From contig JAPLJI010000071.1 in the NCBI GenBank assembly GCA_026388655.1, forward strand, positions 1-37,315: a DNA stretch of 37,315 bases. Direction: 5' to 3'. Both the position numbers and the translations under genes were made by a program. The notes under the pieces are model-generated. The model was not told the DNA's origin. It was given only the letters and a program-made list of their open reading frames with translations, and did not search any database. This DNA is from Pseudomonadota bacterium (GTDB lineage: Bacteria; Desulfobacterota; JAPLJL01). This document shows, piece by piece, positions 12,346 to 30,350 of the stretch. Every line of letters begins with the position of its first letter. Position 1 is the stretch's first letter.

Positions 12346-13209
12346 ATGCGTTCGCATATTCTCGGAAGCGGATTTTATGTCCCGCCCCGGGTCGTGACCA
12401 ACTTCGACCTGGAAAAGATGTTCGAGACCTCGGATGAATGGATTCAGCAGCGCACCGGGATCGTTGAGCGGAGATACGTCGACGAAGGTGTGGGCACCGC
12501 CGATCTCGGATACCAGGCCTCCCTGAAGGCGATCAAATCGGCCGGTCTGGAACCGAAGGATATCGACTTCATTATATTTGCCACCTTAAGCCCGGACTAC
12601 AACTTTCCCGGCTCCGGGGTCTTGCTTCAGGACAAACTGGGGATTGATCCCATCGGCGCCCTCGACATCCGCTGCCAGTGCTCCGGGTTTCTTTACGGCC
12701 TTTCTATCGCCGACCAGTATGTCCGCACCGGAACCTACAAACGGGTTCTTCTGGTCGGCGCGGAAGTTCATTCCACCGGGCTGGAATTCGCCACCTCCGG
12801 CCGAGATGTGACCGTCATTTTTGGAGACGGCGCCGGGGCCGTGGTGGTCGGCCCCTCGCCCGACCCGGAGCGGGGTGTCCTTTCCGTTTATCTCCATTCG
12901 GAGGGAAAATATTTCCGGGATCTCTGGACTGAAGGCCCGGCCAGCATTCTTCATCCCCGGATCGACCATAAAATGCTGGACGAAGGCAGGCATTACGCCC
13001 GGATGAAAGGGCGCATGGTTTTTACCCACGCGGTCAAGCGGATGCCGGAAGTCATCCACGAAGCCCTGGGAAAACATAAACTGAAGGTTGAAGACATCAG
13101 CCTTTTGATCTGCCACCAGGCCAATTTGAGGATCAACCAGTTCGTGGCTCAGGCCCTCGGCCTTCCGGAGGAAAAGGTTTATAACAACATCCAGCGCTAC
13201 GGTAAATGA
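12346..13209 (+). CDS. fabH: 3-oxoacyl-ACP synthase III (FabH-like), C-terminally truncated
   Basis: KAS III condenses acyl-CoA with malonyl-ACP to start fatty acid synthesis. This frame gives 287 residues against about 320-330 for the family. The nucleophile Cys112 (CQCSGFLYGL) and His257 (ICHQAN) are present, as is the FGDGAGAVVV block. The protein ends at NNIQRYGK, exactly where full-length members read RYGNTSAATIP, so the third catalytic residue (Asn) and the last strand and helix pair are lost. From 13204 onward the DNA is a heptamer repeat array, which supplies the stop codon. It is therefore probably inactive as a condensing enzyme. The start is well supported by AGGGGG upstream. It could be a recent pseudogene, or the 3' end may be misassembled. 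The group also includes secondary-metabolism KAS III enzymes. Confidence 0.85.
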   Translation: MRSHILGSGFYVPPRVVTNFDLEKMFETSDEWIQQRTGIVERRYVDEGVGTADLGYQASLKAIKSAGLEPKDIDFIIFATLSPDYNFPGSGVLLQDKLGIDPIGALDIRCQCSGFLYGLSIADQYVRTGTYKRVLLVGAEVHSTGLEFATSGRDVTVIFGDGAGAVVVGPSPDPERGVLSVYLHSEGKYFRDLWTEGPASILHPRIDHKMLDEGRHYARMKGRMVFTHAVKRMPEVIHEALGKHKLKVEDISLLICHQANLRINQFVAQALGLPEEKVYNNIQRYGK

Positions 13210-13396
13210 CAAATTACTAATTTCTAATGACTAATTAATTTCCAATGCCAAATGACCAAATTAAAGGCAATGACAAATGACAGGACACAATCGGAACTGG
13301 CGCATTTGACATTAGACATTTGATGTATTGGCATTGATTAGAAATTAGGTCAATTAGAAATTAGACATTAATTAGATATTCGTCATTAGAAATTGG
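13204..13396. repeat. Long heptanucleotide-period array between fabH and rimI
   Basis: The spacer divides into 7-bp steps from its first base: AAATGAC, AAATTAC, TAATTTC, TAATGAC, TAATTAA and so on. Later units include AATGACA x2 (13269-13282), ATTTGAC/ATTAGAC/ATTTGAT (13304-13324) and ATTAGAA/ATTAGGT/ATTAGAC (13337-13366). It is AT-rich, unlike its neighbours, and runs from inside the fabH stop codon to just before rimI. Confidence 0.75.
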
Positions 13397-13914: not shown

Positions 13915-14763
13915 ATGGTGATGCAACTTTCACGTTGTCCAATAAGTAAAAACCAGGTAATCGCTCCCGGTTATTTCCTCATGGAAATCGAAAGTCCGGA
14001 AATCGCCGGGGAAGCCGAGCCCGGGCAGTTTGTCATGATCAAAACCCGGGACGGGCTGGAGCCGCTCCTCCGCCGCCCTTTGAGCCTGCACCGCATATCA
14101 TCCACCTCCATCGAGTTGCTTTACCAGGTAATCGGAAAAGGAACCCAATCCCTGAGCCGAACCCGGCCCGGAGAGTTTTTAGACCTTCTCGGTCCCCTGG
14201 GGAAACCTTTCCCCCTTCCCAAGTCGAATTCCGGATCCACCCTTCTCGTCGCAGGGGGAATGGGGATCGCGCCAATTTTGGCCTTGGCAGAAAAAATAGC
14301 CAAAAGGTCAAAGGTCCTGCCTGCGCCAAGGCTTCGGCAGGCAGGCAAAGGTCAAAGGTCAAGGGCACCCCTAAAAATCCATCTTCTTTATGGAGCAAAA
14401 AATAAAGCTAACCTCGTGAGAATCAAGGAGTTTCAGAAACTGGGGGTCGAGGTTAAAACCGTGACCGAGGACGGGAGCGCGGGTCGAAAAGGATTGGCCA
14501 CCAATCTCCTGCGGGAATCGCTGGTTTCCTCACCTGGTCAAATCTCGGCTGTCTACGCCTGCGGACCCCGACCTATGCTCAAGTCAGTAGCCCGCATCAT
14601 GAAAAACAAGAAAATTCCCCTTTACCTTTCCCTCGAGGAAATGATGGCTTGCGGGATGGGAGCGTGCCTGGGATGTTCCGTCCGAGCGAAAGGAAAAGAA
14701 ATCCATTATCTACGCGTATGCCAGGATGGACCGGTATTCGAGACCGGGGAAATCGTTTTGTGA
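13915..14763 (+). CDS. pyrK: Dihydroorotate dehydrogenase electron-transfer subunit, with in-frame repeat insertion
   Basis: PyrK carries electrons from the PyrD FMN through a [2Fe-2S] cluster and FAD to NAD in pyrimidine synthesis. The protein has 282 residues: an FAD-binding barrel (LRRPLSLH), an NAD-binding domain (GGMGIAPILALAEK, YACGPRPML) and the [2Fe-2S] cysteines 246, 251, 254 and 269 (C-x4-C-x2-C-x14-C). About 20 extra residues (around RSKVLPAPRLRQAGKGQRSR) follow AEKIAK; they are encoded by AAAGGTC heptamers surrounding a palindrome (14303-14360) and have no counterpart in typical PyrK. The insertion keeps the frame and lies where a loop is expected, so the enzyme may still work. 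pyrD follows about 200 bases later. The start region has only a weak ribosome-binding site. Confidence 0.93.
   Translation: MVMQLSRCPISKNQVIAPGYFLMEIESPEIAGEAEPGQFVMIKTRDGLEPLLRRPLSLHRISSTSIELLYQVIGKGTQSLSRTRPGEFLDLLGPLGKPFPLPKSNSGSTLLVAGGMGIAPILALAEKIAKRSKVLPAPRLRQAGKGQRSRAPLKIHLLYGAKNKANLVRIKEFQKLGVEVKTVTEDGSAGRKGLATNLLRESLVSSPGQISAVYACGPRPMLKSVARIMKNKKIPLYLSLEEMMACGMGACLGCSVRAKGKEIHYLRVCQDGPVFETGEIVL
14303..14360. repeat. Repeat element inserted inside pyrK: heptamers flanking a palindrome
   Basis: AAAGGTC x2 (14303-14316), the inverted repeat CCTGCCTGC (14316-14324) / GCAGGCAGG (14337-14345), then AAAGGTC x2 (14347-14360). The AAAGGTC unit also forms a spacer array at 14852-14872. Confidence 0.85.
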
Positions 14764-14796
14764 TTGACGATTTACGATTGACGATTGACGATTGAC
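14762..14796. repeat. Heptanucleotide tandem repeat (GATTGAC), 5 units
   Basis: GATTGAC, GATTTAC, GATTGAC, GATTGAC, GATTGAC in exact 7-bp register, starting at the pyrK stop codon. Confidence 0.85.
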
Positions 14797-14851
14797 GAAT
14801 GTACAGGGCATAGGACAAGGAGCATGGGGCAAGGAATATAGGAAATAGTTC

Positions 14852-14961
14852 AAAGGTGAAAGGTCAAAGGTCATAGGAAAGAAAATAACTTTGAGCTTTG
14901 AGCTACGAGCTTCATGCTTTTTTACATTTGAACTTTGAACTTTGAGCTTTGACATTTGTAT
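14852..14961. repeat. Heptanucleotide tandem repeats (AAAGGTC, then TTTGARC) before pyrD
   Basis: AAAGGTG, AAAGGTC, AAAGGTC (14852-14872). After a short gap come TTTGAGC x2, TACGAGC and TTCATGC (14890-14917), then TTTGAAC x2, TTTGAGC, TTTGACA and TTTGTAT (14927-14961). The array ends 5 bases before the pyrD ATG and leaves no Shine-Dalgarno. Confidence 0.85.
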
Positions 14962-14966
14962 TTGTT

Positions 14967-15899
14967 ATGAACCTTAAAACCAAAATTGGAAAACTGGTTT
15001 TGCAGAACCCCATCCTGGTCGCTTCGGGCTGCTTCGGATATGGGGAGGAATATGCCCCGCTTCTGGATCTATCCCGGCTGGGGGGCGTGGTCACTAAAGG
15101 GATATCCCTAAAACCCCGTCCCGGCAATTCCCCGCCCCGGCTGGCCGAAACCCCCGCCGGTCTCCTGAATTCCATCGGCCTCGAAAACGTCGGCGTGGAC
15201 CGGTTTGTCGAAGACAAGCTCCCCTTCCTCCGCAAACAGAAAGCCTGCGTGATTGTTAATATTTTTGGAGAAAGCCTGGGGGAATACCGGAAACTCGCCG
15301 AAATCTTTAACGATATTGACGGAATCGCCGGTTTGGAAATCAACATCTCCTGTCCCAACGTCGAAAGAGGCGGTCTGGAATTCGGATTGAAACCCGACTC
15401 GACCCGGAAAGTGTTGGAAACGGTCAGGGGAAAAACCTCCCTCCCCATCCTGGCCAAGCTCTCCCCCAATGTCACCGATATCGTCGAAATCGCCCGGGCG
15501 GCGATGACCGGGGGCGCCGACGGTCTAACCCTGATCAATACCCTGAAAGGGATGGCAATTGATGTTAATACCCGACGTCCGAAACTGGCCCGGGTTATCG
15601 GTGGACTCTCCGGGCCGGCCATCCGCCCGGTAGCGGTGAGAATGGTCTACGAAGTGGCCCGGAAACTGTCGGTTCCCATCATCGGGGCGGGAGGCATAGA
15701 CTCCACCGAAGCGGCCCTGGAATTCTTTATTGCCGGGGCCAGGGCGGTGCAGATCGGAACCGGGCTATTGATCGATCCCCGGCTGCCCCTGACCATCGGC
15801 CGGGAACTCGCCGGCTATCTTGACAATCAAGGTTTAAAAGATATTGAATCCCTGGTGGGAAATATGCTGATCGAAAAATCAAAACGGAGGAAAGAATGA
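14967..15899 (+). CDS. pyrD: Dihydroorotate dehydrogenase, class 1B catalytic subunit
   Basis: PyrD oxidises dihydroorotate to orotate and, with PyrK, passes electrons to NAD. The protein has 310 residues from the ATG at 14967; a TTG at 14949 would add six residues encoded by repeat DNA (TFVFV after the start), so it is rejected. Visible signatures are NPILVASGCFGYG, LNSIGLEN, the active-site loop INISCPNV with the base cysteine of class 1 enzymes, the FMN-phosphate region IIGAGGI, and ARAVQIGTG. It pairs with the upstream pyrK as in other class 1B systems. Its stop overlaps the next start (ATGA). The start codon directly follows heptamer repeats and has no recognisable ribosome-binding site. 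Confidence 0.94.
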   Translation: MNLKTKIGKLVLQNPILVASGCFGYGEEYAPLLDLSRLGGVVTKGISLKPRPGNSPPRLAETPAGLLNSIGLENVGVDRFVEDKLPFLRKQKACVIVNIFGESLGEYRKLAEIFNDIDGIAGLEINISCPNVERGGLEFGLKPDSTRKVLETVRGKTSLPILAKLSPNVTDIVEIARAAMTGGADGLTLINTLKGMAIDVNTRRPKLARVIGGLSGPAIRPVAVRMVYEVARKLSVPIIGAGGIDSTEAALEFFIAGARAVQIGTGLLIDPRLPLTIGRELAGYLDNQGLKDIESLVGNMLIEKSKRRKE

Positions 15900-29726: not shown

Positions 29727-30350
29727 TTGGATTTGCATAAAGAAATACATTTGTCTCGAAAAGCCAAATACCTCTGGGGTGCCGCGATCGCCCTCACCGT
29801 CTCGATCTATTCCACCCTTTCGTTGATGCGGGATGTTCTTTTGTTCGTCTATAGTAAAATCGGGCGCAGCAACTTCAGCGCCGGGGTGGATGTTTTTCTT
29901 GTTGCCGCGATGGTCATCGTGTTTCTGTATTTTATCCTTCGGAAAAAAATCCACAAAAATCTCTTCGATCTCGCCACCCTGATCGTGGTGTTTCTCGCCA
30001 CCGGCTTGACCATGCAATTAATGGAAATACCCGAAGAGAGGGCTCATTTCCTGGAATACGGCCTTTTGGGCGGATTGATTTTCAGCGCCTGGTCGGAAAA
30101 CCTGTCCGGGAACCTGCTCTACCTGGCTTCGATCTTTTTGGTTTCTTTTTTGGGAGGGGTTGATGAGATTATCCAATATTACCTTCCCAACCGGGTTGGC
30201 GAAGTCAGGGATTGGGTCCTGAACGTGGCCGGCGGAATGATCGGGGTAGCCGTGGCCTGGGTATTAAATCGTCCTCACCTTGGCTTCGATCACCTTGAGC
30301 CAAACGCTTCTTGTCATCCTGAGCAAAGCGAAGGATCTCAGAAGGATTAG
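29727..30350 (+). CDS. VanZ-like integral membrane protein with repeat-encoded C-terminus
   Basis: A 207-residue membrane protein with a TTG start. Predicted helices are AAIALTVSIYSTLSL, FLVAAMVIVFLYFIL, LATLIVVFLATGL, GLLGGLIFSAW/LLYLASIFLVSFLGG and VLNVAGGMIGVAVAWVL. The VanZ signature GGVDEIIQYYLPNRVGEVRD followed by WVLNVAGG is clear. VanZ relatives affect teicoplanin resistance or envelope traits, but most have no known role. The last residues (SCHPEQSEGSQKD) are the translation of the TGTCATCCTGAG repeat starting at 30312, which also supplies the stop. The natural end is probably near residue 190. The ribosome-binding site is weak. Confidence 0.8.
   Translation: MDLHKEIHLSRKAKYLWGAAIALTVSIYSTLSLMRDVLLFVYSKIGRSNFSAGVDVFLVAAMVIVFLYFILRKKIHKNLFDLATLIVVFLATGLTMQLMEIPEERAHFLEYGLLGGLIFSAWSENLSGNLLYLASIFLVSFLGGVDEIIQYYLPNRVGEVRDWVLNVAGGMIGVAVAWVLNRPHLGFDHLEPNASCHPEQSEGSQKD

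Follow-up and report, generated by a model that had tools for sequence, protein, structure and literature searches.

How does repeat DNA come to lie inside the gene of a working enzyme, and what becomes of the protein when it does? Small palindromic repeats read in frame in working proteins are best known from Rickettsia and from a few REP-rich species. The question is raised here by pyrK in our window (the whole stretch of DNA analysed, which is one entire contig of 37,315 bases with a GC content of 54.5%, from a draft genome of 3.56 Mb that is 94% complete). The initial annotation described this place as a single element, made of AAAGGTC heptamers and a palindrome, that adds about 20 residues to a loop after the manner of the Rickettsia elements. 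Our analysis favours, with a probability of roughly 80%, an origin in two steps: a heptamer array in the PyrK loop would have been followed later by the in-frame insertion of a mobile palindrome of 30 bp, the protein still working afterwards. The features on which the argument rests are the following.

13915 to 14763, + strand: pyrK, dihydroorotate dehydrogenase electron-transfer subunit, 282 aa (Pfam DHODB_Fe-S_bind and NAD_binding_1)
14303 to 14315, + strand: left part of the AAAGGTC heptamer array, which is split by the palindrome here, unsplit in the sister species G002 and modified in the sister species G001
14316 to 14345, + strand: 30-bp REP-like palindromic element CCTGCCTGCGCCAAGGCTTCGGCAGGCAGG, encoding LPAPRLRQAG (residues 135-144); identified by an exact 30-bp gap relative to G002, family copies and stem covariation
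14316 to 14321, + strand: left arm of the family stem, CCTGCC
14336 to 14341, + strand: right arm of the family stem, GGCAGG
14342 to 14345, + strand: unpaired tail CAGG of the element, conserved in the family as CANG (column counts)
14346 to 14362, + strand: right part of the AAAGGTC heptamer array
14764 to 14968, no strand assigned: pyrK-pyrD spacer with several heptamer arrays (GATTGAC, AAAGGTC, CTTTGAG and TTTGAAC), recognised by self-identity at lag 7

Two layers of repeat DNA in one loop of PyrK

The product of the gene is matched by the profiles PF10418 and PF00175 and, below their cut-off, by NCBIfam NF000799 and NF000798. It carries the FAD/NAD-binding and Fe-S cysteine motifs of PyrK, with four Fe-S cysteines that align with those of relatives, and its predicted fold agrees with both PyrK chains that are its best matches in the PDB (5ksw_B and 1ep1_B). 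The gene is followed by pyrD (sub1 family, 14949-15899), and its frame is open from 13915 to 14763, insert included. The AlphaFold model, built with 34 sequences, has a mean pLDDT of 91.4 and a pTM of 0.89; in it, residues 134-153 form a coil with a pLDDT of about 61-66 between a helix (115-133) and a strand (154-161). The insert, which the initial annotation asked to be modelled as a possible surface loop, is predicted to be a flexible coil joining these two elements.

Four AAAGGTC heptamers start at 14303, 14310, 14347 and 14354, and the DNA at this place reads AAAAGGTCAAAGGT on the left flank, CCTGCCTGCGCCAAGGCTTCGGCAGGCAGG in the palindrome and CAAAGGTCAAAGGTCAA on the right flank. The pyrK copy also pairs in a register of 9 bp, CCTGCCTGC at 14316-14324 with GCAGGCAGG at 14337-14345, so that the heptamers, the 9-bp inverted repeat and the open frame first reported were all recovered from the sequence. 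Since the second heptamer ends with the very C that opens the left arm, the unit is best placed at 14316-14345, that is, exactly 30 bp. It is stop-free in the pyrK frame and adds ten residues, LPAPRLRQAG.

Comparison with the sister species G002, whose PyrK is 77% identical to that of the window, separates two layers in this DNA. When positions 14316-14345 are excised, the remaining sequence matches G002 without a gap at 58 of 70 positions, against 13-33 at other offsets. The palindrome is therefore a clean insertion that left no target-site duplication and took place after the split between the window genome (G000) and G002; a precise loss from G002 is less likely. At the same place in pyrK, G002 has heptamers only (AAAGGTT AAAGGTC AAGGGTC AAAGGTC AAAGGCC), with an identity of 83% at lag 7, and so shows the seven-base period of heptanucleotide tandem repeats. 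In G001, heptamers of the AAAGTTC type are accompanied by two different palindromes, CCCTGAGCGAAGTCGAAGGG and CCCTCGACCCCGAACGGGTTCTCGGGACGAGAACCCCTGAGGGG, and the frame is open up to the end of the contig. Judged from these alignments, the heptamer array is common to both sister species and is the older layer. The expected absence of the insertion from relatives was borne out, G002 providing the empty site and distant PyrKs lacking the whole segment. The annotated gain of about 20 residues holds as a total, but not as the product of one source: about 10 come from the heptamer array, as in G002, and exactly 10 from the palindrome. Both components of the proposed combined element are likewise present, but they are two layers, an older array and a younger 30-bp insertion, rather than one unit.

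The length of the segment was measured from the conserved glycine of GMGIAP to the glycine of the YGA motif. It spans 18-26 residues in 30 of the 31 PyrKs from outside the genus and 35 in the remaining one; within the genus it reaches 32 residues in G002, 42 in the window genome and 63 in G001. Between the window genome and G002, dN/dS of pyrK is 0.18-0.21 both before and after the insert, and it lies at 0.18-0.29 on both sides over all pairs of the three species. This purifying selection on either side argues that the frame has been kept and PyrK used, and the enzyme with its insert apparently still works, as far as activity can be read from selection. The insertion was most likely near-neutral and tolerated rather than beneficial.

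Structured RNA was considered as an alternative content of this DNA and rejected, as no Rfam family was found above threshold and no unusual fold either (folded as single-stranded RNA, the 76 nt of the stretch are of ordinary stability, z = -0.73). A terminator or promoter at the element was also rejected, none being found there on the + strand.

A dispersed palindrome family and its heptamer surroundings

With up to 3 mismatches allowed, a search of the 3.56-Mb genome gives 5 matches to the palindrome and 0 to a reversed-pattern control. Its core, YGCCAAGGCTNYG, gives 41 matches in the window genome (5 for the reversed control), 24 in G001 (2 for the control) and 24 in G002 (15 for the control); in most other genomes of the phylum, core matches are near background. 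A few genomes of the same phylum, G068 and G037 among them, have 23-25 core matches against 1-2 in the control, and related elements may thus exist outside the genus. We tabulated 42 copies of the window genome that have the stem. Loop columns 10-12 and 14-18 are invariant, giving the invariant loop CGCCAAGGCT. The six-pair stem covaries: 42 cells differ in both arms at once, where shuffling yields 15.7 and reaches no value as high in 500 rounds, and 90% of stem cells are paired, compared with 28-52% when the partners are slid. The copies in this set were chosen with at most 2 stem mismatches, a choice that favours pairing somewhat and drops few core matches. The terminal four bases are C in 38, A in 34, G in 25 and G in 39 of the 42 copies, and the 5' flanks are variable. 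No paper on this core or on the family of CTGAGCGAAGTCGAAGG, described below, was found in our literature search, and the 30-bp family is apparently undescribed, its core having no match in the papers searched.

That the same element should recur in other genes of the genome proved correct. Besides pyrK, the window genome carries it in frame in a Peptidase_C11 gene (clostripain family), in a thiamine-pyrophosphate (TPP) enzyme, where it sits in the linker between the N-terminal and central domains, and in an HD-domain protein. The in-frame hosts of G002 are a CCA-adding/poly(A) polymerase-like gene and a large GH123-like gene, and that of G001 is a papain-family gene. A single reading frame of the palindrome is used in pyrK, the clostripain gene and the TPP enzyme, giving PAPRLRQAG or PAPRLWRAG; the remaining host genes use different frames or the other strand. 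The TPP orthologue of G002 (87% identity) has a shorter linker without palindrome, and the CCA-enzyme orthologue of the window genome has heptamer-like DNA at the corresponding place, without the CCAAGGC palindrome. No clostripain orthologue was found in 19 relatives, so that host offers no empty site. At the 3' end of an alpha/beta hydrolase ORF of the window genome (L014, contig C73), a palindrome within a TTGACGA array provides the last residues and the stop region, as a C-terminal extension.

Another palindrome core is dispersed as well. The core CTGAGCGAAGTCGAAGG, which belongs to the first of the palindromes in the pyrK of G001, has 5 exact copies in G001, 7 in the window genome and 4 in G002, and none in 17 other genomes of the phylum. 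Further upstream in the CCA enzyme, both G002 and the window genome have a second palindrome in frame, TGCCCTGAGCGRAGYCGAAGG, read as CPERSRR. The family of TGCCCTGAGCGRAGYCGAAGG, which is also found inside the pyrK of G001, looks like a second family of mobile palindromes in coding DNA.

Two more general properties were examined and given up. Of 85 copies, 35 contain no stop in any of the six frames, compared with about 21-22% of controls, a mild excess that composition and the core explain without any special design. Insertion into the loops of other palindromes does not hold as a general rule either, although single examples look so: complementarity of the flanks (runs of at least 7) reaches 3.4% against 2.7% in mismatched flank pairs.

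Heptanucleotide tandem repeats, of which the STRRs of cyanobacteria are an example, pervade the intergenic DNA of the window genome: of its segments of 56 bases, 8.9% reach an identity of 50% or more at lag 7, a share that does not exceed 0.8% at lags 4-6 and 8-12. The AAAGGTC unit had been noted as a spacer repeat downstream of pyrK, and the tandem AAAGGTCAAAGGTC indeed reappears at 14859, in the pyrK-pyrD spacer and about 500 bp from the pyrK array. The self-identity of this spacer (14764-14968) is 66% at lag 7 against 24-32% at lags 5, 6, 8 and 9. The spacer consists almost wholly of heptamer arrays; that of G002 is shorter, with far less of the period. Over the three species, 16 of 87 palindrome copies sit in heptamer DNA, a kind of sequence that makes up 9.2% of the segments in intergenic DNA and 1.2% of those in ORFs. 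This is about twice the intergenic expectation (p = 0.005 against intergenic DNA), and the association of palindromes with heptamers is real but modest. Where it occurs, the position of the split follows the type of array. TTGACGA arrays are split after the A in 5/5 cases, CAAAGGT arrays between T and C in 3/3, all of them inside genes (pyrK, clostripain and CCA enzyme), and TAGGTGA/TAGGGCA arrays after the A in 6/6, two of which are neighbouring duplicates.

Relation to known repeat systems

The closest parallels differ in which of these properties they share. Rickettsia palindromic elements (RPE; Ogata et al.) are 100-150 bp long (105-146 bp in PMC2229807) and are found in frame in many genes (PMC3767692, PMC2229807); guanylate kinase carrying one was shown to be active, with an altered substrate affinity (PMC2229807, PMC3767692). 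Our palindromes resemble them as dispersed elements that lie in frame in several working genes (pyrK and three more in the window genome, others in G001 and G002), add a peptide segment and are probably neutral or nearly so. They differ from them in a unit of exactly 30 bp, an unrelated sequence and the placing of several copies in heptamer arrays, and a genome of 3.6 Mb, of free-living size, together with the window's GC of 54.5%, counts against an origin in Rickettsiales. The parallel drawn by the initial annotation thus holds for behaviour and not for family membership.

REPs tagged with GTAG or CGTC have been described inside genes of several species (PMC3733652). Like these, our elements are stem-loops in the range of 20-40 bp (30 bp, 42 copies, covarying stem), with tens of copies, one unpaired conserved tetranucleotide and a mostly intergenic location, some copies lying in ORFs where they code for about 10 aa. 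Unlike these, they end in CANG (mostly CAGG), an unpaired terminal GTAG or CGTC being absent from the column counts of the 42 copies, and they do not flank a Y1 transposase gene. RAYT linkage as in a REPtron was looked for at seven Y1_Tnp loci read with their flanks, and no copy was nearby. Neither the target-site duplication nor the terminal inverted repeats of MITEs were found, the gap relative to G002 being exactly 30 bp without duplication. Wolbachia palindromic elements and the enterobacterial ERIC/RU in ORFs (PMC3767692, PMC2229807) are likewise short repeats, non-autonomous and joined in frame to the ORFs of their hosts, but they are much longer and of other sequences, and have terminal inverted repeats with or without TA duplication. 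As for the arrays, bacterial heptanucleotide long simple sequence repeats such as the TAACTGA repeats (PMC4679880) are equally tandem, chiefly intergenic and abundant in the genome; the arrays described here differ in comprising several sequences instead of one, and in having one stop-free type inside pyrK and other genes that hosts palindromes at a fixed phase.

The 30-bp family therefore behaves like RPEs and intragenic REPs yet belongs to neither, as its length, its tag and its lack of a linked transposase show. Three things are unusual here: palindromes nested in heptamer arrays, a fixed phase of insertion, and a PyrK loop that has been used repeatedly, by different palindromes, in sister species. 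The family extends in-frame palindrome insertion to a lineage with larger genomes, and does so in a case where one sister species shows the empty site. In another (G001), different palindromes have struck this very loop of the enzyme, so that a protein loop can be seen growing step by step out of repeat DNA. Heptamer arrays and palindromes, usually treated apart, are linked in this process.

Origin and movement of the insert

We propose that, before the split of the three species, a heptanucleotide array of the intergenic type common in the genus came to lie in the NAD-binding domain of PyrK, in the loop between its first helix and second strand. An array of suitable sequence is translated as a stop-free heptapeptide repeat, KGQRSKV. 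In the lineage of the window, one of the dispersed 30-bp REP-like palindromes would then have inserted cleanly into the array, with no duplication of the target site; owing to its length of 30 bp and the absence of a stop in this frame, it would merely add ten residues to a flexible loop. The palindrome itself is probably a non-autonomous hairpin element copied through single-stranded DNA. Insertions that break genes would be lost, and the survivors would consequently sit in loops and linkers. Against this account, most palindrome copies lie outside heptamer arrays, no mobilising enzyme is linked to the element, and the copy number in the array could be mis-assembled.

As to how the palindrome might move, a Y1/HUH enzyme (RAYT-like) acting in trans could recognise the hairpin and the CANG tail in single-stranded DNA and insert the element without target-site duplication, a route to which we give a little less than an even chance. 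It would fit the REP-like architecture, a palindrome of 20-40 bp with an unpaired conserved terminal tetranucleotide (PMC3733652), and the presence in the window genome of seven proteins that pass the Pfam cut-off for Y1_Tnp (the frames of five are about 290-345 aa long); but the tail differs from GTAG and no palindrome copy lies beside any of the seven genes, whose flanks were read over 0.04-1.9 kb on each side, two ending at contig ends. Spread guided by homology, which we regard as possible but tentative, would dispense with a transposase: the palindrome would be copied from array to array by template switching or gene conversion, with the heptamers as homology arms, and palindrome and heptamers would form one compound system. 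The insertion phase fixed within each heptamer type, the exact junctions without duplication and the same AAAGGTC array 500 bp downstream of the pyrK insert are all consistent with this. Yet about 80% of the copies are outside heptamer arrays, sequence-specific insertion could give the same fixed phase, and common descent may link some of the copies found in a given heptamer type. We hold it rather unlikely that this idea can be carried further, to heptamer arrays as phase-specific landing pads among which palindromes spread by homology-guided copying without transposase, arrays in genes then giving a recurring, frame-safe lengthening of loops with different palindromes at the same place in each species.

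The two-step origin has also to be set against readings in which the insert is either useful or not real. The extension of the loop in all three species of the genus compared might point to a selected feature of PyrK, for example a partner-binding loop; we consider this very improbable, given that the loops differ wholly in length (32, 42 and 63 residues) and sequence among these species, that the window's addition is a dispersed repeat also present in unrelated proteins, and that the AlphaFold model gives it no structure. An assembly or binning artefact is less probable still. Repeats are weak spots of assemblies, and the three genomes all look like fragmented metagenome drafts spread over many contigs (two are so labelled), in which the copy number of the arrays could be mis-assembled. 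But the frame is open, its flanks match G002 at 77% protein identity, palindromes occur in this array in G001 too, which was assembled independently, and the same pattern is found in other genes.

Repeats were noticed at other places in these genomes as well. On one contig of G002 (C5), copies of the palindrome at 29812 and 31322, separated by 1.5 kb, have similar outer flanks, heptamers and palindrome having been locally duplicated together. In the window itself, a FabH-like ORF upstream of pyrK (12346-13209 and 13212-13388) ends after NNIQRYGK, so that no more than positions 2-46 of the 90 in Pfam ACP_syn_III_C are matched. Tandem repeats rich in AT start 3 bases past its stop, and it may be a gene cut short or shifted in frame at a repeat.
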